Below are positions 18,184-45,078 of a stretch of DNA of 45,078 nucleotides, piece by piece (position 1 is the stretch's first letter; each line of letters starts with the position of its first letter). Position numbers and translations under genes: made by a program. The stretch comes from a virus. The stretch is from positions 1 through 45,078 of IMG/VR virus record IMGVR_UViG_3300027747_000047. One strand, given 5' to 3'. The notes under the pieces were generated by a model that worked only from the letters and a program-made list of their open reading frames with translations, was not told the DNA's origin and did not search any database.

Positions 18184-18662
18184 GCGACAACCGCTTAGCC
18201 CCAGAATGGGTGGAGAAACGAAACGAGCTACGTGAAAGAGCTTGTTGCGGGGATAGCAACGCTTTGGTATTCCTAAGCACCGTTATGGATGCGGTTGAGA
18301 TTTGGGACGATCTTGTAGATAAGGACAAAGATGTTAAGGGTGACGACATAAATCGAGTGTTCCTAAACCTAATGTTCTTTATGCCTCAGAATCCGTTCTT
18401 TGAACGTAACAAAGGGTACTTGTTGCCCATAATGATGACTTGTATAAACGCTTGGTTAGACTCAAACGACTTGCAGAAATCTCCTGTCAAACGTGATCTT
18501 CAAGCTGCGTGGTGGTTAAAACAAATGGGCGTTGAGCTATATGGCTCAGTCGCATTCTTAATGGGTGGCTTTAGCCACATGCGTGAAATCTCACTAGAAG
18601 CCCGTACTGTACTGGCGCACGAAGATTTCGCGGATTTCTTACAGGAGCATAACCATGCCTGA
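18180..18662 (+). CDS. Conserved all-helical virion-region protein, function unknown
   Basis: This 160-residue protein begins at an ATG inside the stop of the previous gene (ATGA), with no obvious ribosome-binding site, so coupling is likely. The sequence is predicted helical throughout: EWVEKRNELRERACCGDSNALVFL, WDDLVDKDKDV, NLMFFMPQNPFF, INAWLDSN, AWWLKQMGVELYGSVAFLMGG. I recognise this protein from other aquatic phages, always between the two large internal virion genes, but no activity is known. It could be a chaperone or minor partner of these proteins. Eight bases overlap the next gene. Confidence 0.6.
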   Translation: MSDNRLAPEWVEKRNELRERACCGDSNALVFLSTVMDAVEIWDDLVDKDKDVKGDDINRVFLNLMFFMPQNPFFERNKGYLLPIMMTCINAWLDSNDLQKSPVKRDLQAAWWLKQMGVELYGSVAFLMGGFSHMREISLEARTVLAHEDFADFLQEHNHA

Positions 18663-23900: not shown

Positions 23901-26900
23901 AAGTTTGTTGTACTGGAAGAAGGTCAAGAAATACCTGAGCAACTCAAGACTCCTAGAAATGCTAAGGCATGGGATCGTTCGATTGCGCTCTATATTGAGA
24001 ACTACAAGACAGGTGACCGCGTTATCTATGTGCGTGGCGCGTCATTTGGCAATTCTCAAGGTATCAACAACATCACTATCTTGCATGAACTCTTGCACGC
24101 TGCGACTAACCGCAAGTTGGCTATTGCATTTGAGTACATCAAAAAGGGTGTCTACCTAAACACTCCGGCAGTTAGAGCAGCGCAAGATTTAATCCGCATC
24201 ATGAACAGTGCGGCTCGTACATACGAAGACCTAGCTAAGCAGAAGAAGTTGTCGATGGATATGGTTGCGCTTCGCTATGACGGAGACATCTTCAACGACC
24301 CCCGTGAGTTTGTGTCCTATGGTTTAACCGACCCACAGATGCAGAACTTCTTGATGCAAGCGCACGGCTACGAGGCAGACATGCCATTCTTTACTCGGTT
24401 TGTTTCTGCACTGCGTGATCTGCTTGGTATGAAAGATACCGACATCAACGCACTGACCGACCTCATTGTCGCAACCGACAACATTTTGAAAGCGCGTGTC
24501 CCCGGAGTTCAAATAAACGGCCAGTCCGTCAGTAGCATGTTTGGATTTGGCAAAGGTAAGGATACGGAAGCTGACAGTACGTTTTCTATCAGTGGAGAAA
24601 CAGTAAGTGCTAAACCAAGTGCTAACGTCCAACGTCTTGCAAAAATGCTTGGTACTAAGTTATATGGCACACCCGAAGACATTACTACGGTATCGGTCAA
24701 AGAGCTGTTTCAAAACTCTTTTGATGCTATTAAAGAAGCTATTGAAAACGGTCAGGTTAAAAACGGTAAGGTTGCAATTAAGTTAGATAAAGATAAACGG
24801 ACTATCAACATTACTGACAACGGCCTCGGTATGCCCACTAGTGTGATGGGTAATCAGTTCTTGCAGATTGCTGGTACTGTAAAAGGTACATCCCGTGCGT
24901 CAGGTGGTCTTGGTGTTGCCAAGATGTTGTTCTTGTTTGAGAACAAAAAATTAGAAGTTGTTTCTTTACGCGATGGCAAACTGTCTCGATTGATTACTAC
25001 GGGCGACGAATTAAAAGCTGCTATGGCGGCAAACCCAGCTACTCTTTTAGAACAACTAAAAGATTTTCTTTCCCCGGAAGACATTCAAATTATTGCGCCC
25101 GCAATACAGGCAGCTATTACTCGTATGCGGGAAAATGGAGAAGTTGTACCCGAAATAAAAATTGAAACTTCTTCTGATTCAAAAGAGATTGAAAAATACA
25201 AAAACATATTCCCTGATGGGCATGGCACGTCTGTAACTGTTCAGATTCCTGAGACGTATGTTGACTCTTCCAGTGGCGACGAAAAGGATATTAAATTCCC
25301 CATTTCAGCTCATTACTATCCTGTGTTGGGGAAAAGCCCTTTATTTGACGACATAGAAGTTACGTTTGATAGAGGCTATGGTCCAGATAAATTATCTCTT
25401 GGTAAAAATTTTCCAATTGATGATTTCACACCTTTTGCAAATGTAAATTTTGCTTGGGGCACTGCGCGTGTCTATGTATCTAAAAAGATAGAAAGAAATT
25501 ATGGTGATAACACCCATGTACTATCTAATGGTTTATGGCAGTTTGATAGAACTATTTCAGATCGTCCCGGATTTGGTGGTAAGGCAATTCAACGCGATTT
25601 TTATATTGATGTATCTCCTTCTCCAGACGTTAAGCCTGAAGATGCTGGCTATCCGTTTGAATTAAACCGCCAAGGATTTTCAAAACAAGCCAATTCCGAC
25701 TTTGAAAAAATCTTTAATTACATCACTGCAATCTATAGCCAACTAGATTTGGCCGCAGGTATTAAAAACTTTGGCACAGTTCAGTATGTCAATCTAGACG
25801 GTAGCCTGACTACCGCAGAAATCCTTGAACCTAAAACGCCAGTATCTGATAACGCTTTTACTCTGATTAAACCCGGAGATAGCGTAGAAGTTCGTGAAGG
25901 AATTTTGTATGTCAACAATAGAAAGTTGCCGGAGCTTACTGCCGATGACTTGAAGAATACTGCGGTGCGCATTGATGAGTTGACTATTCCACAGAAAGAT
26001 ATCAACCCAAAGAAGGTCATGATTCATGACAACACTCGGTTCGAGATAGACGATAAAGTTTTAACGCAGCAGGGCTGGGATGTAGTAGTAATAGACAACG
26101 CATGGGTCGCTGTTAAAAACGGTAAAAAATACACTGAACCCGGTACGATGGAAGAGTTAGTAGCTCAGATGGAAGCTGACGGGGCAATAAAAACCGAATC
26201 TCTTTCTGACCGTGCTCGTGAAAAGTTTGGCGCTCGGTACGACAAATATCTTGCTGAGATAGGCCAAACATTCCAATTACTTCGTGGTGCTCTAGTAGCC
26301 GGTGGCCGTGGCGAATATGGTGATTTAGCAAGCCAAGCAATCGGTACAAGTATTGACAACGAGTATTACGGTGTTAGTATCATGGTCCCATTCAAGGGTA
26401 TGTTCATCAATCCGACGACGACCGACATGCGCGGCAGTCCTGAGGAAATTGCCATATCAATGATTGGTACAATGATCCACGAATTGGCTCACTTTAAAGC
26501 ACGCAATCACGGTGCCGAGTTTGCTAGTGAGATGCAGAGGGTAATGACCTTATTGAAGGTCTACCCTGCTATTGATTTAGACCAAGTCGAGAAAAACTTA
26601 ACTAAGCATGTCGCTAAGAACAAAGACATTTTTGACTTTTTAGATAAGGAGTTCCGTAGTGGAAATCTCAAACCTCGTGGAAACCGCTTCAAAGACGCTG
26701 GTGGGTACCAGCAAATTGAAAATGAAGGCTCTACTGAGTCAGTGGAAGGCACTAGCGGAGCAAGAGAAGGGTGGCGACCCAGCCTATCCCAAATCGCTGG
26801 GCCTAGCGATCAGAACGCTGGACAAATCGGCATCGGTGAAGGACTTGATAACGAAGCTCAAGAAGTCGGAGAGGTAGTAAGAAGTCAAAAGGCTATTGAG

Positions 26901-29914: not shown

Positions 29915-30109
29915 TTAGGTTCGCCAGACTCGAAGCCCTTTGATACCATCTAGCAACACTACTTTCGTAACAATATCCATCTTTAATCTTTTAGCCACAC
30001 GGTTTAGTTCTTCCCGTGCGGCCTTCTCGTCTATGCAGGGTACAAAGAAGCTGTACCCTTTGCGGAACTTCTTCCACTCAATCTGATACGACACTGTCTC
30101 GATTTGCAT
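29915..30109 (-). CDS. Small conserved early protein, function unknown
   Basis: This 64-residue protein begins inside the last codons of the primase-helicase gene (32-base overlap in another frame) and is the final gene of the leftward operon, about 50 bp before its terminator. The sequence opens MQIETVSYQIEWKKFRKGYSFFVPC, followed by a helix rich in Ala, Arg and Lys (EKAAREELNRVAKRLK) and a short strand-rich end (VTKVVLLDGIKGLRVWRT). A beta-alpha-beta mini-fold with basic surface suggests nucleic-acid contact, but this is inference. The ribosome-binding site is weak, so coupling to the upstream gene is likely. Confidence 0.65.
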   Translation of the reverse strand: MQIETVSYQIEWKKFRKGYSFFVPCIDEKAAREELNRVAKRLKMDIVTKVVLLDGIKGLRVWRT

Positions 30110-32924
30110 CTGCGGTCAATGTATCAAGTTGTAGATATTCAGACTTACCCGCGTCAAACTTTAATGTCCGTACGACTGGTGACGACAACTTCATACCCTT
30201 AGACATACGCTTGTTGACGGTTTCCAATAGGATTTGCTGGTCGGTCATGGTTTTAAGCAGGCTCTTGTAGTTGATCTGCTGTTTAACGCAGAACTCTTTG
30301 AACTGCTTTGCAGCTACATATAGATGTTTGGTATCTGGCTCGTAGCGTATTAGTAACTCTCCACGCGGTTCCATACCCGGCATTGCCTGCATGTTTGTCC
30401 GTGCATCAACTTCACCGTTAACCACCAATGTGTTCATTGCTAAGTGAGCGTTCACAAACTCGCCAAGGGCTGTAACTGGAGAATCTGTCGGTGGCTTAAC
30501 GTCAAGGCGCATCTCAGACAACATGCTTTTCATCCACTTATAGATTTCTTTCATGTCATAGTTATGCAGACCAAGTTCTTTGGCTATTAAACCGCCAGTA
30601 ATGATGGTGGCGCATACGGCTGACCAAAAACGTTCGCGTGATGTGAACTGGACTTCTTTGTCAATCTTGGCTTGAATCTGTTTATATGTATTCTTGGCTT
30701 CTTCAAGGTTGTTAACTAACCAAGTAATGTAGATTTCCCCTGCGTGGCCGTAGTTCTCGTTGAGTTGATGGTCAAACATCTCCTTGCCGTAAGCCATACC
30801 AATCACGTCGTTAGGCTCAATCTTGTACTCTAGTAGACGCACTGACTCACCATCCGGAGCGTTCTTTAACATCAGTAGCTTTTCATGGAAGCTGGCGTTA
30901 GCCGATGCCAGAGTCATGTTCTGCCAAGAAGTATTGTTAACGCGCAGTGCATTCTCTGAACCTTTAACTCGGTGTTTGCCTCGACCTTGACTGATGCCGT
31001 ATGCCAAGTCGGAAAACTCCTTGGGTAGCATGTTGGTAATCTCGTCAATCGTGTTGGGCAGGTTGTTCATCACACCCAGTTGTTGCATCTTGGCGTTGAG
31101 CGTATCTTTCTCAATCGCCATCATTTCGTACGGCATTCCGTACACGCTGTTGCACATGCGCAGAATCGTTGATTTTCCTGATCCAGCCTGCTCGTAGATT
31201 ACGTTAATGATTGCACCCTTTAAGCCAGTGAACTTGAACAATGGGGCACCGAATGCCGTAAGAGCGGCAAACGCATGGGGCTCCATGCCCGGTTTTGCAT
31301 ACAGATTAAATACTTCTTTCCACTTCTCCATGTCGCCTTTGGTGTGAATCTTTTCTGCGAAGAAGTCTGTTGTTGATGACGGCGGGCTATAGAACGTCCC
31401 GTCTTTGGTGATCTCTTTGTCACCCATAATAAATTTGCTGTCTCCATCTACCCATCCGAATTGTGTTCTCATTAGCTCTGCTTTCTTTGTGTACTGTAAG
31501 TTTTTGACTGATGTAACGACATACGTAGCAAGGTTTTCATACTGCTTGTGGTGTGCCATCACTCCCTGTTGTGCAAGATGCTTGCGCAGCTCGTCTTTAG
31601 AAGATATAGCTGCTGTCGTAATAGCAAACTCTTTCATACCGTCGTGCGGTAGGTGATGCCTAAACAGCGCCATCTCTCCTAACTCTTTGTCCCGCATCCG
31701 CTTAATCACATACAGATCATGTTCATAGACTAGCTTTGGCTCGCCCTCTTCATCATCTTGTTGTGGTCTGACGTAGATGCCACCTTTTTTCCCACGAAAA
31801 AATGGGAATGGGTACTCAGGTATTTGGTGCTTGACTACACCTTGTTTGGTTTCAACTTCAACTTCGTTATCTTCTTCGGTGGCTTGCTCAATCTCCACAC
31901 CTAAAACAATAGGTGACTTGAACTTACCTCGGTGTGGGCAACCCTCACAACCTCCGGGATTTCGCTCCTCAAATGTGTCGCAGTGGTGTGGCCCACCGTT
32001 CTTTCTTATATTCTTTAGTTTCTGGTTAACCTCTGCGGGGTCATACTCGGGATGCTTCTCTGACATTTTGTGGGCGGCTTTGTCTCCATCTACGCAGAAA
32101 GCGGGAATAGATAACGCAGACATCCACAGTGGTTCGCTAAGTTCTTCTTGATTCTCATAGCAGTAATTGAGTTGGGCGCAACCCTTCTCGCCTAGCATCA
32201 TGATTGTCTTGAACTTCTTAACCTTGTTACCCAGTAATGCTTCCATCATTGGGCTCATCGCTCTCGGTACAAAGTCAGGCTGTTCTTGCTCAGGCGCATC
32301 TGCACCGAGTAATTCTTTGTAGGCTTCGTACGATAGAGGCTTCGTGTGCTCGTTCCAAACTGTGACGGATTTAGGGTCATCTTTGTTCTTGAAATTAGCC
32401 GAGTGCATCGGGCGCAAGATACGTGAGGCTTCGAAGACGTGTGGGTCAACGATTAGTCCATGCTCTTTACACAATGCTTTTAGTCGCTTAGCTAACGGCG
32501 TCCACTCTTGACGAGTAACCGTGCGGTCGAGCAACCAGTAGGCGTGAATTCCGTTGCCAGAGTTCACCAGTATGGGTCTATGCAGTCCAGCGGTTTTGCA
32601 AAACTTTTGTAATTCTGCTAGTCCAGTCTGTTGATCTAGATAGCCCTCAATAATCCCTTTGGAGTTAGGTACGCCCTTGGTGGGGCCGCAATCAATATCC
32701 ATCCACAATGCGCGGAAGTATTGAGCGTTACCGTGAGTCCTGTCGTTCGCTGGTCCAAATTTAGCGCATCCGAAAAACGCGTCAATCTTCTTACCTACAA
32801 ACTCTTGAATTATTTCTTCAGCTTCTTCTCTAGTATCTACAAATCTTTGATCTGGAAACGTGCCACCCCCGAATACACAGTACCGTCCCTCCGTTGGGAG
32901 CACTGCATTGAGTAGGTCAAACAT
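30078..32924 (-). CDS. Primase-helicase (AEP-like primase fused to DUF927-type helicase)
   Basis: This 948-residue fusion is expected to prime and unwind DNA at the phage fork. The N-terminal archaeo-eukaryotic-primase-like half shows the metal-binding D76-x-D78 (WMDIDCG), the nucleotide motif N121-S-G-N-G-I-H127 and the third motif SRILRPMHSANFKN (167-180). A cysteine cluster, H314-C315 and C326-x-x-C329-x-H331 (NPGGCEGCPH), probably binds metal. The C-terminal half carries Walker A EQAGSGKST (Lys584) followed by DEITNM-type acidic residues, in the arrangement of DUF927/COG5519 phage and plasmid helicases. The start overlaps the HTH gene stop (TAATG). It serves the same fork as the family A polymerase and SSB-like protein of this module. 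Confidence 0.82.
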   Translation of the reverse strand: MFDLLNAVLPTEGRYCVFGGGTFPDQRFVDTREEAEEIIQEFVGKKIDAFFGCAKFGPANDRTHGNAQYFRALWMDIDCGPTKGVPNSKGIIEGYLDQQTGLAELQKFCKTAGLHRPILVNSGNGIHAYWLLDRTVTRQEWTPLAKRLKALCKEHGLIVDPHVFEASRILRPMHSANFKNKDDPKSVTVWNEHTKPLSYEAYKELLGADAPEQEQPDFVPRAMSPMMEALLGNKVKKFKTIMMLGEKGCAQLNYCYENQEELSEPLWMSALSIPAFCVDGDKAAHKMSEKHPEYDPAEVNQKLKNIRKNGGPHHCDTFEERNPGGCEGCPHRGKFKSPIVLGVEIEQATEEDNEVEVETKQGVVKHQIPEYPFPFFRGKKGGIYVRPQQDDEEGEPKLVYEHDLYVIKRMRDKELGEMALFRHHLPHDGMKEFAITTAAISSKDELRKHLAQQGVMAHHKQYENLATYVVTSVKNLQYTKKAELMRTQFGWVDGDSKFIMGDKEITKDGTFYSPPSSTTDFFAEKIHTKGDMEKWKEVFNLYAKPGMEPHAFAALTAFGAPLFKFTGLKGAIINVIYEQAGSGKSTILRMCNSVYGMPYEMMAIEKDTLNAKMQQLGVMNNLPNTIDEITNMLPKEFSDLAYGISQGRGKHRVKGSENALRVNNTSWQNMTLASANASFHEKLLMLKNAPDGESVRLLEYKIEPNDVIGMAYGKEMFDHQLNENYGHAGEIYITWLVNNLEEAKNTYKQIQAKIDKEVQFTSRERFWSAVCATIITGGLIAKELGLHNYDMKEIYKWMKSMLSEMRLDVKPPTDSPVTALGEFVNAHLAMNTLVVNGEVDARTNMQAMPGMEPRGELLIRYEPDTKHLYVAAKQFKEFCVKQQINYKSLLKTMTDQQILLETVNKRMSKGMKLSSPVVRTLKFDAGKSEYLQLDTLTADANRDSVVSD

Positions 32925-37984: not shown

Positions 37985-38298
37985 GCTTGTCCCCTTGCTC
38001 TGATTGCTTTGGCGTATCCATCAAGTATTGTTGCTGTGTAATTTTGAAGCCATACATCGCTTTTAAGTCCGCTCAAATCTGTTAACTCAAACAACTTTGC
38101 ACACGCCTCACGCTCAAGAGCAACTGCTACATCAACTGCTTTCTCAGCCGCTTTCATTGCGGCATCAGTTAATCGCTCACGCTCTTTCTCTGCTACCAGT
38201 TTGGCAAAAGTTTCAAGTTCTTTTTTATGAAAGTCAATTACAGGACCACGAATACCCACTTGTTTAGCCATCTCAATGATTTCATCTTCTTTAGTCAT
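37981..38298 (-). CDS. Helical protein of unknown function
   Basis: I choose ATG 38298 (105 residues) because GGGGAG lies upstream at a usable distance; a start at 38328 would add residues that lie in the upstream small gene. The sequence is helical and alternates charged and Ala residues (ETFAKLVAEKERERLTDAAMKAAEKAVDVAVALEREACAKLFE), ending AIRARGQA. Such short helical proteins are frequent in aquatic phage early regions and are not characterised. The ATGA overlap with the downstream acidic gene suggests co-translation. Confidence 0.55.
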   Translation of the reverse strand: MTKEDEIIEMAKQVGIRGPVIDFHKKELETFAKLVAEKERERLTDAAMKAAEKAVDVAVALEREACAKLFELTDLSGLKSDVWLQNYTATILDGYAKAIRARGQA

Positions 38299-38458
38299 CT
38301 TCTGTTTCTCCCCACATTGCTTCGTCAATTAACTGACGCTTTACTAACTCTAATACGCCAATCACAGTAGATGTGTATAGCGTCTCGTCATACTTGTGTA
38401 GCACTTCTAGCAGTTCCTCTGCCAAACCACCCGCAATTTGTCCTTGGTTAAGAATCAT
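38291..38458 (-). CDS. 55-aa early protein, function unknown
   Basis: The gene runs from ATG 38458, preceded by GGAGG (7-base spacing), to TAA 38291-38293, overlapping the next start by eight bases. The protein is predicted to be two helices (QIAGGLAEELLEVLHKYDETLY and VIGVLELVKRQLIDEAMWGE) ending acidic. No recognised family. The strong ribosome-binding site and clean fit between neighbours, rather than similarity, are the basis for calling it. Confidence 0.55.
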   Translation of the reverse strand: MILNQGQIAGGLAEELLEVLHKYDETLYTSTVIGVLELVKRQLIDEAMWGETEDD

Positions 38459-38460
38459 GT

Positions 38461-38877
38461 TTACCCTCCGTGCGCTACTGCGCTATCTGCGTAGTCGGCT
38501 TTCTTCTGATACTTCGGCTCGTGTACCGACAAGAAGAAACATGTGTCACCTTCAAATCGTACTGTGTCGCCACGATAAGTCCATGCCCACTTTGGTATCC
38601 CTATACCTTGCGTAATAAATGCAAAGCCCTTAGCAGTTAGTGTCCACTCACCATCTACCCTAGTTCTACTAGCCAAACCCCAGTAGCGTAGCTTTTGAAA
38701 GTTAGTCCATTGTGTTCTTGTGATACGCAAAGCACGCAAACTAACAGGGCCACCGCCCGCAGAGAATAGTTCGTACAACCCATGCGCCAAACCTTTGTTG
38801 AACACATGCCGATACTCAACCATCTTCGCGTCGCAATGAGGGCAACGCTTCTTAACACTCGCCGTAGCTTTTTCCAT
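38461..38877 (-). CDS. Zinc-ribbon plus winged-helix-like early protein
   Basis: The start is set at ATG 38877 (138 residues) with GAGG at ideal spacing; the GTG 12 bases upstream has no site. It begins inside the end of the DNA polymerase gene (26-base overlap). An N-terminal C12-PHC15 motif suggests half a zinc site. The middle contains RALRITRTQWTNFQKLRYWGLASRTRVDGEWTLTAKGFAFI, a pattern typical of winged-helix phage proteins in which KLRYWGL is the conserved core and the wing follows. DNA binding is plausible and its target is unknown. Position next to the polymerase supports a role in replication or transcription. Confidence 0.55.
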   Translation of the reverse strand: MEKATASVKKRCPHCDAKMVEYRHVFNKGLAHGLYELFSAGGGPVSLRALRITRTQWTNFQKLRYWGLASRTRVDGEWTLTAKGFAFITQGIGIPKWAWTYRGDTVRFEGDTCFFLSVHEPKYQKKADYADSAVAHGG

Positions 38878-40672
38878 ATCCCGCCTCACAGTTTAAAGGT
38901 AACTCTTGTGCCCACTTGGGGCGTAGCCGCATACATAACTCTACGTATTCCACAGCAGTCGCAACTTCCTGCTCCGGGACAATCAGTGCAATCGCATCAT
39001 GCACTGTCATTACTACTTTATATTTCTTAGCAACCATGAGCATTTGCTCACCGATGATGATTCGGGCTAGTGCTTGGCAGACGTTCTCGATTAACTTACC
39101 GCCATAGATTCGGTTGGGTATAACTGCTTTGCCCTTCTTGGTGTCGTATACAAGTTCGGCCTTCTCGCTGTCCTCAGCCTGATACATACGTAAGTTGGGG
39201 TATCGAATATATAACTCGTTGGGTAGGTATACGCCTTGCTTGCCGTGAATCTGCAAAACACCGCCCCGACCTAGCTGAGTCATTTGCCCTTGGAGTATGG
39301 CTTTGAGCGCATAGCCCGCATCTTTCCATAGTTGAGTAATTTTCGGATATGTATTTCGGTACGTATTGATAATTCGCTGTGCTTCTTCAGCCTCAACCGT
39401 AACACCAAAATTTTTAAGTTGCGCTTGAAACTTTGTCGCCCCCATGCCGTAGCCCGCTCCAAGAATCGTCGTTTTACCGACAAAGCGCTCGTCCTTTGTA
39501 ATCTCTTCGATTCTCTTGCCATAAATAGCCGATGCCATGATTTTGTATACGTCTTCGCCATCTTCAAATGCCTTTACTAAGTCGTCTTGCCCCGCTAACC
39601 ATGCGAGTGTGCGGGCTTCAATCTGTGATGAATCTGAGTCAATCATCATGTAGCCTTGTGGGGCTCTGATCGCCCTCTTGAGCATTGACCCCCTCGGCAG
39701 GTTTTGTAGGTTTAGTTTGTCGTCTCCGCCCCATCGTCCAGTATGTGCCGCGTAATATCTAAGCGGGACGGGCATTGTGCCTCTGTCAGCAATACCAATG
39801 AATCGTTCTGTCCGTGTCTCTTCAATCGTAGACTTCATGCCTAGCCTTGCGGTAGCTAATGTTTGTACAACTGGGTTCACATGGTCAAGTAACTCTTTGA
39901 ACCCCTCGTCCGTCTTAGCGAAGGCATAGGTTTCTTTGCCAGTAGTAGGGCTCTTTTTCATCGGGGGCACAACGCCATTCGCAAAAAGTAACTGGGCAAA
40001 CTTTGGGTTGCTCATCAAGTCATCTTTATCGTAATGGGCAAGCAACTTAATCTTTGTGGACTGAATCAGGAGTAGGTGCTCGTCAAGCAAGTCCCCATCC
40101 AACTCGAGCGTAGGTTCAGTGAACATACGGATGGTTAGGTCAATTAAACGTAACTCCGCTGCGGGGAAGTCGTTACTCATAAGCAAGAATATGGAGTAGG
40201 TCAGCTTAACGTCGTTCTTGCAATACTCCCCATAAGTGGCTAGATGCGTAGGAGTAAAGTCCTCACGGCGCAGGCCCTTGGCATCCTCTACCTCTGTGCC
40301 CTTTATGCCAACATCGTAGTGCGTAGCTAATACTTTGAGGCTACCGCCCACCTCAGTACCGTGCAATGCACGCCCCATCGAGAGAGTGTCAAGCCAACCC
40401 TTGGGTTTGATGCCGTAGACCCAGTTCAAAATTGCCCCATCAAACATTGCGTTGTGGGCTAGGGCAAGAGAATTGTCCCAATCAAATTGGTCTAGGAACT
40501 GGTGCATGTCCTCACGGCTTCCGCTAAACCATGCTGGTTCACCATCGTTTACTTGTATTGAAACACCGATAACTTCAAAACGCTGATCCCGCACATACTC
40601 CTCAGTGGTCTGCTTGGCGAAACCTAGGTCGGCAGAGTAGTAGGTTTCAAAGTCGATTGTGAGGATGTTCAT
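38852..40672 (-). CDS. DNA polymerase, family A (T7/Pol I-like), with 3'-5' exonuclease
   Basis: This 606-residue replicative polymerase has Exo I Asp7/Glu9 (IDFETYY), Exo II Asn74-x3-Asp78 (HNAMFDG) and Exo III Tyr150-x3-Asp154 (YCKND). It has motif A with Asp347 (DSSQIEAR), motif B Arg396-x3-Lys400-x7-Tyr408-Gly409, and motif C His558-Asp559 (VHDA). The 5'-3' exonuclease domain of bacterial Pol I is absent. The residue equivalent to E. coli Phe762 (four after the motif B Lys) is Leu404. Both proofreading and polymerase sites look intact. The gene overlaps the nuclease before it (ATGA) and the zinc-ribbon gene after it. Confidence 0.93.
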   Translation of the reverse strand: MNILTIDFETYYSADLGFAKQTTEEYVRDQRFEVIGVSIQVNDGEPAWFSGSREDMHQFLDQFDWDNSLALAHNAMFDGAILNWVYGIKPKGWLDTLSMGRALHGTEVGGSLKVLATHYDVGIKGTEVEDAKGLRREDFTPTHLATYGEYCKNDVKLTYSIFLLMSNDFPAAELRLIDLTIRMFTEPTLELDGDLLDEHLLLIQSTKIKLLAHYDKDDLMSNPKFAQLLFANGVVPPMKKSPTTGKETYAFAKTDEGFKELLDHVNPVVQTLATARLGMKSTIEETRTERFIGIADRGTMPVPLRYYAAHTGRWGGDDKLNLQNLPRGSMLKRAIRAPQGYMMIDSDSSQIEARTLAWLAGQDDLVKAFEDGEDVYKIMASAIYGKRIEEITKDERFVGKTTILGAGYGMGATKFQAQLKNFGVTVEAEEAQRIINTYRNTYPKITQLWKDAGYALKAILQGQMTQLGRGGVLQIHGKQGVYLPNELYIRYPNLRMYQAEDSEKAELVYDTKKGKAVIPNRIYGGKLIENVCQALARIIIGEQMLMVAKKYKVVMTVHDAIALIVPEQEVATAVEYVELCMRLRPKWAQELPLNCEAGYGKSYGEC

Positions 40673-41031
40673 TTGTATCTGCCGTCCTTGCCTATTGGGG
40701 GTTGTATTTGTTGTGGGTCGTATTCGGACTCTTCCCCCATGTTTGCTAATATCGCTTCCAGAATCTTGTTCTCTAAGGATTCTTCGTTAATCACAAGCGT
40801 CCAACCGCCAGCTTTGTCGATTTCTCGTAGGTTCTTTTCTTGTAGCGCAGTAGGAACACCCCTACCCGCCTTGGCTTCAACGCCTAAGAAATATCCGTTG
40901 TGACACACAAGGAAGTCGGGCACACCGCTATTGCCTAACCCTGTGCCAATCGGCATAGCGTAGTAAGCCCCGTGTGCTTTAAGGATTGCTTTGATTTTGG
41001 CCTTGACCTTGGCCTCAGGAGTTTGTGCCAT
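40669..41031 (-). CDS. VRR-NUC PD-(D/E)XK nuclease (Holliday-junction-resolvase-like)
   Basis: This 120-residue nuclease is the first gene after promoter P1, with GAGGG before its ATG. Active-site residues are in the VRR-NUC order: Asp39 (SGVPDFLV), Glu52-x-Lys54 (GVEAKAG) and Gln64 (ALQEKN). YAMPIGTGLGNSGVPD is the usual pre-motif loop. Standalone VRR-NUC proteins resolve branched DNA, suiting concatemer processing and recombination in phage. It overlaps the polymerase start (ATGA), so both are expressed together. Confidence 0.88.
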   Translation of the reverse strand: MAQTPEAKVKAKIKAILKAHGAYYAMPIGTGLGNSGVPDFLVCHNGYFLGVEAKAGRGVPTALQEKNLREIDKAGGWTLVINEESLENKILEAILANMGEESEYDPQQIQPPIGKDGRYK

Positions 41032-41060
41032 CTAACCCTCGAATTTGTTTTCAAGCGGTC

Positions 41061-41089
41061 AGTCTAACACAGTGATTTGACTTTGTCAA
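41061..41089 (-). promoter_or_regulatory. Early sigma70-type promoter with palindromic operator (P1)
   Basis: Read on the minus strand, TTGACA (41089-41084) and TAGACT (41066-41061) are separated by 17 bp. The -35 is the first half of the palindrome TTGAC-AAA-GTCAA (41077-41089). The expected leader to ATG 41031 is about 23 nt. The shared TTGACAAWGTCAAAT block and ACTGACC link it to P2. It starts the polymerase unit. Confidence 0.75.
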
Positions 41090-41100
41090 CTACGGACAAT

Positions 41101-41123
41101 AAAAAAGCCACCGATAGGTAGCT
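41101..41123 (-). terminator. Intrinsic terminator upstream of P1
   Basis: On the minus strand AGCTACC (41123-41117), loop TATC and GGTGGCT (41112-41106) form a 7-bp stem with one G-U pair, followed by TTTTTT (41106-41101). It ends transcription from the right-hand early genes 11 bp before the -35 of P1, giving a clean unit boundary. Confidence 0.8.
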
Positions 41124-41131
41124 AGGATATA

Positions 41132-41148
41132 CCCTAACAATGTTAGGG
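41132..41148. repeat. Palindrome CCCTAAC-AAT-GTTAGGG (copy 1 of TAACAATGTTAG family)
   Basis: This is a perfect inverted repeat with 7-bp arms and a 3-bp spacer. Its 12-base core TAACAATGTTAG recurs at 43,109, 44,095 and 44,877. This copy lies in the intergenic region between the DUF3310-like gene and terminator/P1. Likely a protein-binding site; the binder is unknown. Confidence 0.7.
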
Positions 41149-41194
41149 GGGTTGGGGGGTTGATAGATTACGTGCCCCCCGTCACGCTAAAGGT

Positions 41195-41231
41195 TCAAGC
41201 AGAGTGAAATCTCAAGGGGGACTCTGCTTGA
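41195..41231. other. Long intergenic hairpin and G/C-run region
   Basis: TCAAGCAGAGT (41195-41205) pairs perfectly with ACTCTGCTTGA (41221-41231), an 11-bp stem with a 15-base loop. On the plus strand this lies just after the run G6-TT-G6 (41146-41159) and a C6 run (41175-41180) that could pair with it. No gene fits in 41,124-41,290. On the minus strand the hairpin falls in the 3' UTR of the DUF3310 gene, before the terminator. It may stabilise the transcript end or be part of a small RNA. Confidence 0.55.
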
Positions 41232-41290
41232 GAAAGACACCGTCACATCTATCGGCTAGGTCATCCTCCAATTTACGATACCCCCTTAGA

Positions 41291-41770
41291 TTAGTTCAGT
41301 TTCTCAATGGCTCGGCTGAGATACCACTGTGCCTTCTTCAAGTCTTCCAACTTGTTGCCCTTGTGGTCAGCGCGTGTTATGTATTTCACAACATTGCCAA
41401 GGTGATAGCCTAATTCTTTCGCCTCAATGAAGTCGATAGTCTCTATTCCACCTGCTTTGTAATGCGGAGGATGGTTGACCATGTCGGTGTGATGCGTAGA
41501 AACAATGTCTCTAGGTGTAGCACTCTGCATACGCTTTTTAGGTTTCGTGTGTTGATGCACTAACTCTTTCATGCGCTCGGGTGTTATCTGCGTGACTGTA
41601 TCTACTGCGGTAGGTATCTTGGCATCACCCTTCATTTTGTGGACTACCTGATGCACATACTGCGGTATCAGCTTCAGTGCGTCTGCTACCTCTCGTGCTT
41701 TCGCAGTCGGGTGCTTAGCAATGTAGGCACGGATTTGTTGTGACTTGTTTGGTTTTGTGGCTGTAGCCAT
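41291..41770 (-). CDS. DUF3310 protein with N-terminal winged-helix-like segment
   Basis: This 159-residue protein is preceded by AGGAG. The C-terminal 60 residues are a textbook DUF3310 domain: NHPPHYKAGGIETIDFIEA (98-116), HLGNVVKYITRA (123-134) and a DLKKAQWYLSRAI end. DUF3310 is common in phages and often annotated as nucleotide-kinase-like, but its activity is not established. The N-terminal half (IRAYIAKHPTAKAREVADALKLIPQYVHQVVHKM) reads as a winged helix, giving a DNA-binding fusion. It is the last gene before terminator 41,101-41,123. Confidence 0.8.
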   Translation of the reverse strand: MATATKPNKSQQIRAYIAKHPTAKAREVADALKLIPQYVHQVVHKMKGDAKIPTAVDTVTQITPERMKELVHQHTKPKKRMQSATPRDIVSTHHTDMVNHPPHYKAGGIETIDFIEAKELGYHLGNVVKYITRADHKGNKLEDLKKAQWYLSRAIEKLN

Positions 41771-41773
41771 GTG

Positions 41774-41977
41774 TTAACTCCTGTTGGTTTGTTGTTTAAC
41801 GAATTCAGTAAGAACTTCTCTCATCTTGGCTTGCTTTGTATACGCATAGTTTGTGTTGAAGTAATCCATCACATCCTTTGGTAGACGCAAGCTCGTGCAA
41901 TAGAGTGCGGGCTTCTTACCAAGACCCCTACCCTTGCGTTTTGTTATTGGTTTTAACTCTTCAATTCCTGTTGTCAT
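41774..41977 (-). CDS. Ribbon-helix-helix-like small DNA-binding protein
   Basis: This 67-residue protein has AAGGAT upstream. A basic N-terminus (KPITKRKGRGLGKKPA) is followed by a strand and two helices (YCTSLRLPKDVMDYFNTNYAYTKQAKMREVLTEFVKQQ). The S-LRLP-x-DVMDYF and VL-x-EFV features match RHH domains close to BrnA antitoxins and MetJ/Arc repressors. There is no BrnT-type toxin next to it, so a transcription-regulator role is preferred. It is separated from the DUF3310 gene by three bases. Confidence 0.65.
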   Translation of the reverse strand: MTTGIEELKPITKRKGRGLGKKPALYCTSLRLPKDVMDYFNTNYAYTKQAKMREVLTEFVKQQTNRS

Positions 41978-42001
41978 AGCAGTGCATCCTTAAAATCATT
42001 C

Positions 42002-42247
42002 TTAGTAAATTTTCGCTTTATTTTTTCTAACACTTTTGGGTCGGCTCGCTCGAATGGATTCCAGTCGTTTTTTATTATTAGCGAGATGGTTTCGTCTCTC
42101 TTCGTCGATTTCCTCTTGCGGGATAGCGACTTCTTTGGTTGTAAATCTGTGTTCGTTTGCACATTCTCTCCTTCGTATATGCCCAAATGTGGGCGATGTT
42201 GTTGTTTGCTTTACTAGTGTCCATGCACCGCATGTCGGGCACTTCAT
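42002..42247 (-). CDS. NrdR-like zinc-ribbon protein
   Basis: This 81-residue protein opens MKCPTCGAWTLVKQTTTS and continues FGHIRRRECANEHRFTTKEVAIP. Cys3-x-x-Cys6 with Cys29 and His33 (replacing the usual last Cys) form the zinc ribbon of NrdR-like transcription factors; the ATP-cone domain of NrdR is absent. Many phages carry this truncated version. A frame overlapping in another register (41974-42186) is a shadow. The spacing is 24 bases to the RHH gene and ATGA overlap with the gene upstream. Confidence 0.72.
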   Translation of the reverse strand: MKCPTCGAWTLVKQTTTSPTFGHIRRRECANEHRFTTKEVAIPQEEIDEERRNHLANNKKRLESIRASRPKSVRKNKAKIY

Positions 42248-42690
42248 CTCCTTCTTATCCTCACTGCGCCCTTAGTCACTCCCCAATCTGTCGCTTGGTT
42301 TCTAACTGAGCGTTGCAAAGAATTCATAGCCATTCGCTTTCTGTTGGTCAAGGTTCTATTTCTCTCGTTGTTCATCTCTTTGTCAGGATTAGTGGCTTGC
42401 TCGGTTGTTGTGTATTTAGAGGTTTGCAACTTCTTCAGTAGGGCTACGTCATGCTCAGGTGCGTAGTCCCACAGTCGTCTGCTTATCTTCTCTAAATGTT
42501 GTGCAACATACGGACGCACTCGTATTTTTAGGGGGACGCCTTCTAGAGGGGTGCGCAGTAGTGGTTCTTCTCTACCAAACACTAAACGCCCCGTAATGCT
42601 TTTAAACATTTGCAATGCGTCCAAAAAGCATCCATCATTGCGCCATGTCTTTATCAGACACGCATCCCAGTATTCTTGGTCGGTGCTCAT
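42244..42690 (-). CDS. Conserved early protein of unknown function
   Basis: This 148-residue protein has GAGG at ideal spacing. Conserved segments are DQEYWDACLIKTWRNDGCFLDALQMFKSITG and PLKIRVRPYVAQHLEKISRRLWDYAPEHDVALLKKL, helical with a basic, Arg/Asn-rich tail (NNERNRTLTNRKRMAMN and RIRRR). I recognise this gene next to zinc-ribbon genes in aquatic phage early regions; no activity is known. It overlaps neighbours on both sides by ATGA. Confidence 0.6.
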   Translation of the reverse strand: MSTDQEYWDACLIKTWRNDGCFLDALQMFKSITGRLVFGREEPLLRTPLEGVPLKIRVRPYVAQHLEKISRRLWDYAPEHDVALLKKLQTSKYTTTEQATNPDKEMNNERNRTLTNRKRMAMNSLQRSVRNQATDWGVTKGAVRIRRR

Positions 42691-42854
42691 TCTTCCCTCG
42701 CTTTTAACATTGCGTCTGCTACCTTGTAAGCAAAATCTACAAGTTCATCAGTTGGATATCTGATGCCTGAGTTTTCTGACAACATCCCTTGCATAGCATG
42801 AGTAGCAAAGAAATCACGCAGGGTAATCGCAGAAATCATTTCATGGTCTTTCAT
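42687..42854 (-). CDS. 55-aa early protein, function unknown
   Basis: The gene starts at ATG 42854 (GGGGAG five bases upstream) and ends at TGA 42687-42689, overlapping the next start. A start three bases upstream (42857) is also possible. The protein contains ITLRDFFATHAMQGML and TDELVDFAYKVADAMLKAREE. TLRD-x-FA-x-x-AMQG and YK-x-ADAML-x-ARE are recurring motifs of a small phage protein family. I know no function for it. Confidence 0.65.
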   Translation of the reverse strand: MKDHEMISAITLRDFFATHAMQGMLSENSGIRYPTDELVDFAYKVADAMLKAREE

Positions 42855-42951
42855 CATCACTCCCCAACATAAATATTGCTACACCCACAATCACTACGAT
42901 TGCACCACCAAGGCACATCAGCATTACCGCCCATGCAATTGTTTCTAGCAT
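42841..42951 (-). CDS. 36-aa single-pass membrane protein
   Basis: ATG 42951 has GGAG with six-base spacing, and the stop is TGA 42841-42843. The product is almost entirely one membrane span (IAWAVMLMCLGGAIVVIVGVAIFML), with an acidic end GSDDERP. An alternative ATG at 42963 would add four residues but has no clear site. The gene overlaps the next one by 14 bases and the preceding one by seven, so it forms a nested chain of small early genes. Confidence 0.5.
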   Translation of the reverse strand: MLETIAWAVMLMCLGGAIVVIVGVAIFMLGSDDERP

Positions 42952-43115
42952 AGCCAACTCCATAACCCCACGGCTGTGAGACAAACTATTACTGCTATCC
43001 CTGCTAGGGTAGGCAAATCACTCTCTGCTCTATACGGGCCCTCTACTGTTAAGTAAGAGTCCGTGCGCCTGAGTGTTCGTGAATAGATTTCTGTTGTTTG
43101 GTTGTTATCTAACAT
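42945..43115 (-). CDS. 56-aa protein with C-terminal membrane anchor
   Basis: Start ATG 43115 lies inside palindrome copy 2, with only TAACA between the upstream stop and the ATG; a longer frame to 43166 has no site and overlaps the upstream gene. The soluble part (MLDNNQTTEIYSRTLRRTDSYLTVEGPYRAES) is followed by a membrane span (LPTLAGIAVIVCLTAVGLWSW) near the end. Tail-anchored topology. Function unknown; proteins of this type can alter the host membrane. Confidence 0.5.
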   Translation of the reverse strand: MLDNNQTTEIYSRTLRRTDSYLTVEGPYRAESDLPTLAGIAVIVCLTAVGLWSWLC

Positions 43116-43121
43116 TGTTAT
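43109..43121. repeat. Palindrome copy 2, CTAAC-ATT-GTTAT, spanning a stop-start junction
   Basis: This is the 12-base core TAACAATGTTAG on the minus strand. It includes the stop codon TAA of the gene at 43118-43984 and the start ATG of the next gene. Twelve of thirteen bases agree with the palindromic consensus CTAAC-ATT-GTTAG. Confidence 0.7.
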
Positions 43122-43984
43122 GCCCCTTCTGTTAATACTACAAAGATTTCGTCGTTGATACGACACCCTATGTCCGATACAAAGTGCTCGGCTTCAACTA
43201 ACTTCAACATACCTAGCTTTCCTCGCATCTCTACGGGGAGCGTATTATCATCGTAAAGTTGCACATCTTGTCCAATCTTTACCAAGTATTTACCCTCATC
43301 CTTGATAACAAGTGCGGCTTTGTTATCACCAAACCTTTCACGGATTGATTCAATAGTCAACATGTCATCTTTGAACTTCTTGGTCTGCTCCATCTTCTTT
43401 AGCATGGGCTTCTTCTCTGCTTCAGGTAGTCCGTTTACATGCGCTAAGAACAAGTGAAAGCCACTACCCATGATGAATTCTTGCGCAGAGTTTTGCGTAT
43501 CCCTCTCGGAGTAGCGATGCTCTCTACTTTTCTCGTGCGCTTGGTTGTTCATCACTTGCTTCGCCTTGTCATACGCCTTGTCGATACGCTCGTTGGGCTT
43601 GAGACGAAAGAACATCTTCTTCGCCATGAGCACCGCCTTGTCCACATCTCCTGTGCGGTATGACTCTGTGCGTTCTCTCTTATCACTAATGCGGTCGTTG
43701 GTAAGCGATAGTTTGAAGTCACCTCGGTAATACTGTCTACCAATCTTGCCAATAGTCTCACCACTATCAATCACACTGAACCCCACGGGCTTGTGCCCAC
43801 TCAGGGTATCGGTAACGACGAACCGCCACAATGGATTCGCCATCGCTAGATTCATTACCAGTCTGCACATATCCGTAGGTGGGTCACCTATCGACTCCTG
43901 ACCCAACTTCTTAGATACATCGGGATGCAACTCCACATTGCTCAATGCAAATAGATTCATACTTACTCCTAGTGATTCACTCAT
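43118..43984 (-). CDS. Conserved early protein of unknown function
   Basis: This 288-residue protein has two usable starts: ATG 43984 (AAGGAA upstream) and ATG 43960 (AGGAG with five-base spacing, giving 280 residues). The sequence opens MNLFALSNVELHPDVSKKLGQESIGD from the second start and has ANPLWRFVVTDTLSGHK, a helical basic centre (VLMAKKMFFRLKPNERIDKAYDKAKQVM) and an EIFVVLTEG end. I know similar proteins next to DUF3150/VWA genes in aquatic phages, so a link with that chaperone-like set is plausible but unproven. No catalytic motif is apparent. Confidence 0.6.
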   Translation of the reverse strand: MSESLGVSMNLFALSNVELHPDVSKKLGQESIGDPPTDMCRLVMNLAMANPLWRFVVTDTLSGHKPVGFSVIDSGETIGKIGRQYYRGDFKLSLTNDRISDKRERTESYRTGDVDKAVLMAKKMFFRLKPNERIDKAYDKAKQVMNNQAHEKSREHRYSERDTQNSAQEFIMGSGFHLFLAHVNGLPEAEKKPMLKKMEQTKKFKDDMLTIESIRERFGDNKAALVIKDEGKYLVKIGQDVQLYDDNTLPVEMRGKLGMLKLVEAEHFVSDIGCRINDEIFVVLTEGA

Positions 43985-44002
43985 ATCATTTCCTTTGTTT
44001 AA

Positions 44003-44857
44003 TTACCAATCGAACTTACCTAAGATAGCATCTACCTTAGACTTCAATGCGCTCCGTGAGTCTGCATCTTCTTTGATACTCTCTATGTCTGCCCCTAACA
44101 TTGTTAGTTCTAGTTGGCGTCGTGCTTCCTCTAACTTCGGGTCGTTGGTCACATTCAGTTTAGTTAGCAGTCCACACAACTCTATGGGGTTAGAGATAAG
44201 TGTGTCGTGGTAACGCTTCTTGGAATCATCACCCTCAATATCAGTCAACTTCTCCGACATTCCTACTAGCGTCTTATGCAGACGCTCCCACGGCTCACGC
44301 ATAGCCTCGGCTAACCTGTCGCTGTATTGTTTCTCGTAGTCGTTCTTCATCTCCACTAAGTCATGCGCAGGTATATCTAAGCGGAAGTCACCAGACTCAG
44401 GTATTGGTTTAACTGCTCGTCTAAACCCGAACTTCAATCGCACCTCTTCAATCTCGGGATAGTCCTCTGCCTTATACATACTGCCTAGGTTGTTAGGTGC
44501 ATCTGCAACAAGACGCGGATACTCAACAAAGAAGTTGGTGCACATCATGTTGAATGTCTGCTCGAACCCATTCATGGTCTGTTTGTATTCCATGAACAAC
44601 TTGGTCGGTAACATACGCTCACCCTTGTCTGCCCAAGGCAATGTATGCTTGTTGTGATACAGACGAACACGCGCGGCGAAGTCTGATATGTCTTTGCGTA
44701 GGCTAGTCCCCGCAAATAGATTCTTCTTGGTCTGACTCGCACCTCTGACTGCTGACGCATCTGTATTGACCTTATCAGTTACCTCTCGGTCTAACTTAGA
44801 CGCAGGCCATACGCTGATATTCAATTCCACTAATAACGCTGATGAACTAATACTCAT
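44003..44857 (-). CDS. DUF3150-family-like protein
   Basis: The start is set at ATG 44857 (284 residues) because AGGAG lies six bases upstream; an extension to 44941 would read into the VWA-like gene. The order SALLVELNISVWPASKLDREVTDKV, then LPWADKGERMLPTKLFMEYKQ, EYPRLVADAPNNLGSMYKAEDYPEIEEVRLKFGF and NPIELCGLLTKLNVTNDPKLEEARRQLE fits DUF3150. This family is found beside MoxR/CobS-type AAA ATPases and CobT-type VWA proteins. The VWA-like gene directly upstream supports this. Function of DUF3150 is not established. Confidence 0.65.
   Translation of the reverse strand: MSISSSALLVELNISVWPASKLDREVTDKVNTDASAVRGASQTKKNLFAGTSLRKDISDFAARVRLYHNKHTLPWADKGERMLPTKLFMEYKQTMNGFEQTFNMMCTNFFVEYPRLVADAPNNLGSMYKAEDYPEIEEVRLKFGFRRAVKPIPESGDFRLDIPAHDLVEMKNDYEKQYSDRLAEAMREPWERLHKTLVGMSEKLTDIEGDDSKKRYHDTLISNPIELCGLLTKLNVTNDPKLEEARRQLELTMLGADIESIKEDADSRSALKSKVDAILGKFDW
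44095..44107. repeat. Palindrome copy 3, CTAAC-ATT-GTTAG, inside a coding region
   Basis: This perfect 13-base copy lies within the DUF3150-like gene, where the minus strand reads LTML as codons. It matches copies 1, 2 and 4 in the 12-base core TAACAATGTTAG. Confidence 0.7.
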
Positions 44858-44883
44858 TTGATTTCTCCTTTGTTGCCTAACAT
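44854..44883 (-). CDS. Possible 9-codon leader mini-ORF
   Basis: An ATG inside palindrome copy 4 opens MLGNKGEIK and stops at TGA 44854-44856, overlapping the DUF3150-like start (ATGA). It contains the AGGAG of that gene. No site precedes the mini-ORF itself. It may be accidental. Confidence 0.2.
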   Translation of the reverse strand: MLGNKGEIK

Positions 44884-44889
44884 TGTTAG
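44877..44889. repeat. Palindrome copy 4, CTAAC-ATT-GTTAG, at a stop codon
   Basis: This perfect 13-base copy covers the stop codon TAA (44886-44888) of the VWA-like gene and the intergenic start of the DUF3150-like leader. As in copy 2, the minus strand reads stop TAA, CA, ATG. Confidence 0.7.
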
Positions 44890-45078
44890 TTGCTGTCGAT
44901 ATGAATAGTTTTGCCGTTGTCGGCATCACCGTCATACCCACCCACGATGCACCACATTACAGGTGCAGTCCACTCACTACCCCAGTCACCACCTACATAA
45001 CCATCGGTCAAGACAATCACGCACTCGGGCTGGATGTTCTTCTCTTTCAGATACGCTGATACACAAGACGGGCTCGTG
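44886..45078 (-). CDS. VWA-like (CobT/DUF2201-type) protein, C-terminal end (partial)
   Basis: The frame is open at the right edge, and 63 residues plus stop are visible. NIQPECVIVLTDGYVGGDWG followed by APVMWCIVGG and GKTIHID is the end of a VWA-like domain of the DUF2201 type, where TDG follows the last core strand. It fits a CobT-like protein paired with an AAA/MoxR ATPase, which would lie just outside the window. The N-terminal MIDAS residues are not visible, so metal binding cannot be judged. The DUF3150-like gene downstream belongs to the same known gene group. Confidence 0.6.
   Translation of the reverse strand, partial: TSPSCVSAYLKEKNIQPECVIVLTDGYVGGDWGSEWTAPVMWCIVGGYDGDADNGKTIHIDSN

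Follow-up and report, generated by a model that had tools for sequence, protein, structure and literature searches.

An AAA ATPase, a metallopeptidase-VWA protein and a DUF3150-like protein encoded together in a phage gene cluster, with related cassettes on plasmids

Genes at the edge of the window

The DNA analyzed here, called the window, is an IMG/VR phage fragment of 45,078 bases that makes up the entire virus record IMGVR_UViG_3300027747_000047. The genes at its right-hand edge, at position 45,078, encode part of a protein with a VWA domain, a DUF3150-like protein (D3150) and a protein of 288 amino acids (aa) named U288. The original prediction, made from the letters of the window alone, had described these three genes as consecutive and had raised the possibility of an AAA ATPase outside the window; all three are present, consecutive and on one strand, the minus strand. 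The neighbouring DNA could be read from a second contig, IMGVR_UViG_3300027749_000173 (locus L005), which is 100% identical to window positions 38006 to 45078 (7,073 bases, no mismatch or gap) and extends beyond the edge. There, the ATPase suspected beyond position 45,078 was found: the order is A337 (337 aa), AAA ATPase (358 aa, ending about 1.7 kb past the window edge), two small open reading frames (ORFs; 130 and 70 aa), the full VWA protein (410 aa), D3150 and U288. The features are as follows.

44886..45078, minus strand: 3' part of the gene for the 410-aa HExxH metallopeptidase-VWA protein (DUF2201_N and DUF2201), comprising its last 63 codons and the stop codon
44003..44857, minus strand: D3150, putative DUF3150-like third component, 284 aa, ATG start; remote PF11348 homologue, below the cut-off
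43118..43984, minus strand: U288, conserved ORF, 288 aa, found next to the cassette genes throughout the phage group of the window
L005:4824-6056: gene for the full 410-aa metallopeptidase-VWA protein (PF13203 and PF09967, phrog_1314)

The D3150 ORF was listed as 44003-44941 (312 aa, GTG start). Because many relatives align only from about residues 25 to 29 of this form, and because a ribosome-binding-like AAAGGAG precedes an ATG at 44857, the gene is most likely 44003-44857 (284 aa). U288 starts 18 bases after the end of D3150, with AAAGGAA before its ATG. Scans of the region for promoters (2 promoter-like sites, versus 5.0 in shuffles) and terminators (3 terminator-like sites, versus 1.9) were uninformative, and the 1,961-base edge region had no direct DNA similarity to named phages.

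A third protein remotely related to DUF3150

The name DUF3150, given in the original prediction, fails at the Pfam cut-off, whereas profile-profile comparison supports remote homology. The model PF11348 (cut-off 24.9 bits) matched neither the window D3150, nor the corresponding protein of Synechococcus phage MinM2, nor five plasmid relatives; searched at E ≤ 10 in 8 records, it matched none. In 8 genomes with bacterial D3150 relatives, it produced ten matches, all under the threshold (best 22.0 bits), of which six were D3150 genes, some of them recognized by position (E 1e-4 to 0.04), and four were not (E 0.0016 to 0.7). Set by hhalign against just three DUF3150 sequences, the D3150 profile gave a weak match (E 0.0016, probability 16%); once the pCAR1 protein was added, the 48-sequence D3150 profile aligned with the four true DUF3150 proteins over residues 4 to 123 with E 3.9e-6 and a score of 49.1. 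In the controls, the best of 100 column shuffles scored 20.0, and U288 and A337 gave no signal. The match was generally weaker with one member removed (E 2.5e-4, 8e-5, 6e-4 and 2e-6), and with a narrow phage-only profile (A2) the support was gone (E 0.03).

The structure model of D3150 (mean predicted local distance difference test, pLDDT, 89.9; predicted template modelling score, pTM, 0.84) is mostly helical. Its best structural match in BFVD was a phage protein named DUF3150 domain-containing (template modelling score 0.86), and PDB chains yielded helical-bundle look-alikes (best Z 9.6 over 95 residues). The best solved structure found by sequence, the helix-rich apolipoprotein A-IV (E 0.0018), was not trusted. 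Sequence comparison thus supports D3150 as a DUF3150-like protein, a probable remote homologue of PF11348 despite failing its cut-off. The term 'DUF3150' was absent from the literature searched, a search that most subscription journals lay outside.

The ATPase and the metallopeptidase-VWA protein

The full VWA protein passes the cut-offs of PF13203 (DUF2201_N; E 6.8e-24, 85.3 bits versus 23.2) and PF09967 (DUF2201; E 1.1e-15, 58.3 bits versus 26.4). The 63-codon window fragment alone gave PF09967 below the cut-off (E 0.064) and phrog_1314 with E 8e-10. As judged from its motifs, which lie past the window edge and were seen on the L005 side, the protein carries a zincin-like HExxH motif and a VWA domain with a metal ion-dependent adhesion site (MIDAS). 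All 42 VWA proteins of the window's phage group have HExxH, and by strict regular expression 39 of them have the MIDAS motif D[TS]SxS (DTSGS), one more having DASGS. By tblastn, the VWA protein matched 760 phage records and the ATPase 381. Many of the listed phage records label the metallopeptidase-VWA protein (phrog_1314) 'HNH endonuclease'. Since the protein matches DUF2201_N and DUF2201, this label is likely wrong and propagated, and the analysis exposes a probable mislabel.

The ATPase matches PF00004 (27.9 bits versus a cut-off of 21.2) and phrog_1297 (E 3e-47), and all 38 ATPases of the window's phage group have both a Walker A motif (GEPGIGKS) and a DE-type Walker B motif. All 5 plasmid ATPases and 43 of the 46 bacterial ones also fit the Walker A expression. 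An AAA ATPase is therefore present as foreseen; as to 'MoxR-type', the MoxR-specific Pfam models (AAA_3, bpMoxR) gave no match to this ATPase at E ≤ 1, and among PHROG families it matched phrog_1297 only. One plasmid ATPase had a bpMoxR match under the cut-off (E 0.0065). Pfam domains typical of the MoxR-vWA ternary conflict systems (VMAP, iSTAND, FtsH and beta-propeller third components, or bpMoxR) were found in none of the phage ATPase, VWA protein, D3150, U288 and A337. With the PADLOC defence families, the ATPase gave only short partial matches and the other four proteins none; the mad8 match of the ATPase (E 9e-6, best stretch residues 7 to 49) was rejected as a P-loop match. A search of solved structures by sequence gave no trusted match for the AAA and VWA proteins.

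The original prediction had likened the pair to CobS/CobT. On this view, the pair would be a viral CobST working with CobN of the host to raise the output of vitamin B12, as Liu et al. 2021 suggest for the cobST clusters of tailed viruses; they add that 'peptidase' is the usual annotation of cyanophage cobT (PMC8651126). One true DUF3150 (locus L169) does have a VWA-side neighbour that scores above the cut-off of Pfam CobT and contains HECGH, a match that also shows the CobT models to be present in the library used. For this phage, however, the Pfam and NCBIfam matches of the ATPase and VWA protein at E ≤ 1 included neither CobS nor CobT models (the Pfam library presumably contains CobS models as well), the VWA protein belongs with DUF2201_N and keeps its HExxH throughout the group, and a different third protein, D3150, accompanies the pair. 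We regard a viral CobST as highly improbable; what holds of the likeness to CobS/CobT is the analogy.

Linkage of the five genes in viral loci

Linkage was assessed with four scans: one led by D3150 (best 80 of 166 relatives kept), one led by a divergent D3150 (the wider set, best 80 of 354), and two anchored on U288 (best 80 of 268) and A337 (best 80 of 89). A locus was counted as having room for a gene if its available DNA extended far enough to show it. In the D3150-led loci, the five genes were on one strand wherever found, and every locus with room had the gene looked for: AAA (42 of 42 loci), VWA (59 of 59), U288 (79 of 79) and A337 (38 of 38). The U288-anchored loci with room had D3150 (74/74), VWA (44/44) and AAA (34/34). 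The A337-anchored loci with room all had AAA (69/69), and six partnerless loci end inside A337. The expected co-occurrence, ATPase included, is therefore found in phages, contrary to both outcomes that the original prediction had named as refuting it (a missing ATPase and genes that do not occur together). Small ORFs in or near the cluster were unstable (16/51, 21/53 and 8/64 loci). The spacer between VWA and D3150, 28 nucleotides (nt) in the window, reaches up to 920 nt among the 80 viral loci and may be a site of gene insertion.

In the wider set, iterated profiles detected U288 in 66 of 80 loci. Eight of the 14 loci without it have the order AAA-D3150-VWA, as in MinM2; of the remaining six, five (L176, L180, L192, L243 and L250) end soon after, and L190 lacks U288 over 7 kb. 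A337 was detected in 32 of these 80 loci. In 22 it lies upstream of the ATPase gene, in 8 (L177, L184, L185, L186, L194, L204, L239 and L248) D3150 and U288 flank it, and in 2 (L176 and L180) it follows D3150, no U288 being seen there. A337 thus moved, yet stayed in the cluster.

One could argue that U288 and A337 are ordinary core genes of the lineage, lying beside the cassette without acting with it. Other genes of the replication arm are about as constant, namely a downstream 67-aa ORF (44/44) and DUF3310 (41/44), and the plasmid, bacterial, N4 and MinM2-type loci tested showed neither U288 nor A337 beside their cassettes. Against this, the gap between D3150 and U288 is at most 50 nt in 71 of 80 loci (ORF starts being taken mechanically), A337 was relocated inside the cluster without leaving it, and neither gene was seen without the cassette where room existed. 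We consider that the two genes are rather unlikely to be such bystanders.

U288 as a candidate adaptor

U288 is a conserved gene, its relatives being 31 to 100% identical in all 80 kept D3150-bearing viral loci. The original prediction had offered it as a third or fourth component; gene linkage supports it as a candidate fourth. The structure model (mean pLDDT 88.3, pTM 0.56) has an alpha/beta domain at about residues 17 to 125, a hairpin of long helices at 130 to 219 and a beta domain at 223 to 284, in an arrangement made uncertain by the low pTM. The C-terminal domain has the highest column identity (0.58, rising to 0.69 in residues 241 to 265); the N-terminal domain comes next (0.40) and the helices last (0.31 and 0.27), a pattern that would fit an adaptor docking through its C-terminus.

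Searches outside the phage group returned little. U288 and A337 had no tblastn match in named phages, and across the plasmid and bacterial D3150 loci their profiles had no match at E ≤ 1e-3. In BFVD, the U288 model had three matches at E ≤ 0.001, all of them uncharacterized proteins of uncultured phages. A YdhG/frataxin-like fold for the N-terminal part (Z 6.6, root mean square deviation 3.0 over 93 residues) was too weak, the best solved structure by sequence (survivin, E 0.066) was not trusted, and a relationship between U288 and A337 was rejected. Nor were U288, A337 and D3150 convincing as distant versions of other genes close to ATPase/VWA pairs elsewhere, when their three profiles were compared by hhalign with ten such proteins from MinM2, LUZ7, Vibrio K479, Thermus phiFa, Rhizobium TM29, KpCHEMY26 and a plasmid.

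Cassettes on plasmids and in bacteria

Among 50,697 phage records, tblastn with D3150 matched three, MinM2 and two others equal to it in length; among 72,556 plasmid records it matched 44, of which 39 are in genera of the Burkholderiales, 3 in Candidatus and 2 in Rhodovastum. All five plasmids that were fetched have the order AAA-D3150-VWA. A search of 398 Pseudomonadota genomes gave a single match, the centre itself. An ATPase gene accompanies D3150 in 46 of the 48 bacterial loci and a VWA gene in 44. Most of these loci are from Burkholderiales, with Acidobacteria, Cloacimonadota, Armatimonadetes and Pseudoflavitalea among the other sources. Both loci lacking AAA sit at contig ends, and two of those without VWA (L114 and L121) have only 0.3 and 1.8 kb of room. 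Among the 42 loci with both partners, 40 have the order AAA-D3150-VWA and 2 the window's order, AAA-VWA-D3150; in L117 and L140, the ATPase was 1.8 and 4.9 kb distant.

A second kind of cassette surrounds the true DUF3150 proteins. In pCAR1, DUF3150 (307.6 bits) is flanked on one side by an AAA ATPase with a CbbQ_C domain and on the other by a VWA protein with HECSH near its N-terminus, and another true DUF3150 (L170) also has a CbbQ_C-type ATPase beside it. The pCAR1 DUF3150 matched 1,139 plasmid records, 983 of them typed as conjugative; 17 were covered over at least 80%. The pCAR1 operon ORF100-109 was reported to be transcribed more in a transconjugant than in the original host, and ORF100-103 to be conserved in R478, Rts1, SXT and R391, with a role in transfer suggested (PMC2642839). 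Two remotely related cassettes therefore have one layout, made of an AAA ATPase, a DUF3150-like protein and an HExxH-VWA protein. The common layout may reflect one mechanism.

Homologues in N4

Profiles of the window's group, applied to the ORFs of the fetched stretches, found N4 gp24 (29.2 bits, E 3.6e-9) and gp25 (67.1 bits, E 1.1e-20), and gp25 has both HExxH and DTSGS. The profiles of D3150, U288 and A337 found nothing at E ≤ 0.05 in N4 7,000-28,000. Both gp24 and gp25 are listed as N4-like core proteins, no function being given in the available parts of these sources (PMC4193335, PMC7650795); for gp25, the core status in the latter comes from one of three methods. In N4 itself, a classic phage of the laboratory, their transcripts are described as middle (PMC4193335).

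Position of the cluster in the window

The minus strand of the window forms a replication arm, with PolA, DUF3310, primase-like and helicase-like genes in addition to the edge cluster; the plus strand holds the tail, head and ejection-like genes, which were the virion-type genes tested. Two further genes may be mentioned. A 2,966-aa ORF (20940-29840, plus strand), directly 3' of a gene for a DNA ejection-like protein (18655-20931, phrog_4287), may encode a giant internal virion protein. A 948-aa DUF927 protein (30078-32924, minus strand), with matches to phrog_25314 (E 5e-110, function unassigned) and to primase/helicase families, is a probable replication protein.

The position bears on the possibility that the cassette is a chaperone and maturation protease of the virion, the AAA/VWA pair assembling structural proteins and the metallopeptidase trimming them. 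Iyer et al. 2021 propose virion assembly for a phage pair of this kind, citing a pair of Acidianus two-tailed virus (PMC7824862), and the genes for four virion proteins of roseophage RPP1 lie close to its homologues of gp24/gp25 (PMC4193335). On the other side, the cluster of the window lies in the minus-strand arm while the tested virion-type genes are on the plus strand, the N4 gp24/gp25 transcripts are middle ones, and plasmids, which form no virions, carry AAA-D3150-VWA cassettes. For these three reasons, a role in replication or host takeover is favoured over virion assembly. We rate the latter as unlikely.

A proposed protein-remodelling machine

With moderate confidence, we propose that the edge genes form one minus-strand cluster for an ATP-driven, probably proteolytic, protein-remodelling machine, in which D3150 would be a third subunit or adaptor and U288 and A337 accessories. 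The ATPase would form a hexameric ring, on which the VWA protein would dock, gripping the substrate through its MIDAS site as in NorQ/NorD; the HExxH metallopeptidase domain would then cut the gripped substrate. U288 may be an adaptor specific to the phage group, with its C-terminal domain binding the core and its variable N-terminal domain and hairpin reaching the target, and A337 would be the second accessory gene of the cluster. Less firmly, its target, in the course of replication or takeover, may be a complex of the host or one that processes DNA, and not the virion.

Several observations weigh against this proposal. The motifs are less constant outside the window's group: among bacterial relatives (VWA ORFs of at least 360 aa), HExxH and the MIDAS expression are each found in 35 of 42, and the Walker A expression is met by 5 of 8 annotated phage ATPases and failed by 3. 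In N4 gp24 (L174:2939-3997), the P-loop reads SSPGMGKS, in which GKS is kept and the first Walker A glycine is missing. The set of genes varies as well. N4 and seven other annotated phages have AAA and VWA genes with no match to D3150 or U288, and two loci from one Acidobacteria bin (L118 and L119) have D3150 and the ATPase with no VWA gene within 6.8 kb downstream. U288 is in none of the eight phages with the order AAA-D3150-VWA, and is also absent from L190, of order AAA-VWA-D3150, so that it is not needed for the core. A337, present in fewer than half of the wider-set loci, is less constant still, since several loci with about 7 kb upstream have none. Constancy alone does not single out U288 and A337, because downstream genes are about as constant, and the locus counts measure linkage and not independent events, because the phages are related and partly share contigs or sampling projects. 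Location in the replication arm does not prove the time of expression.

A broader reading is that the machine, in two remote lineages of mobile DNA (phages and mostly Burkholderiales plasmids on the one hand, conjugative elements such as pCAR1 on the other), helps incoming DNA to establish itself by remodelling and cutting a host or DNA-bound protein complex, the phage adaptors U288 and A337 choosing the target. We put this forward tentatively, as a speculative extension. The role of such pairs in phages, called unclear in the original prediction, has already been discussed, in two papers that propose candidate roles (PMC7824862, PMC8651126), and the AAA/VWA-metallopeptidase pair in phages is itself already published. 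The literature covered by our search did not show D3150 as a third member, nor the version with five genes in phages, nor the likeness to pCAR1-type cassettes. Set within this broader arrangement, whose DUF3150-like third partner also occurs on plasmids, the unexplained N4 core pair gp24/gp25 becomes part of a machine that can be tested.

Comparison with known systems

The N4 proteins gp24 and gp25 are neighbouring homologues of the window's AAA/VWA pair, between which two small ORFs intervene in L005; N4 differs in having no match to D3150, U288 or A337, and in the P-loop of gp24. In the group 2.2 jumbo phages, Iyer et al. 2021 describe a MoxR ATPase and a partner vWA protein with an N-terminal metallopeptidase domain, as here; two components are described, no third is named in the available part of the paper, and virion assembly is proposed (PMC7824862). 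NorQ/NorD offers a model of how the window cassette might work, with an ATPase ring, a VWA domain modelled as plugging it and a MIDAS site that binds the target (PMC9976466). It differs in its task, the insertion of an iron cofactor into nitric oxide reductase, and the portion of that source available to us mentions neither an HExxH domain nor a DUF3150-like protein.

In the cassettes of the five plasmids and MinM2, all three genes are homologous to the AAA, VWA and D3150 genes of the window's phage. Their order is AAA-D3150-VWA, versus AAA-VWA-D3150 in the window's group, and they have no U288 or A337 match. The pCAR1 cassette (ORF101-103) differs in several respects: its ATPase is of the CbbQ_C type, a VWA/CoxE-type domain takes the place of the window's DUF2201, its DUF3150 is only remotely related to D3150, and none of its three proteins matches U288 or A337. 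Its likeness lies in the three-part composition of an AAA ATPase, a DUF3150 protein and a VWA protein with an HExxH motif (HECSH).

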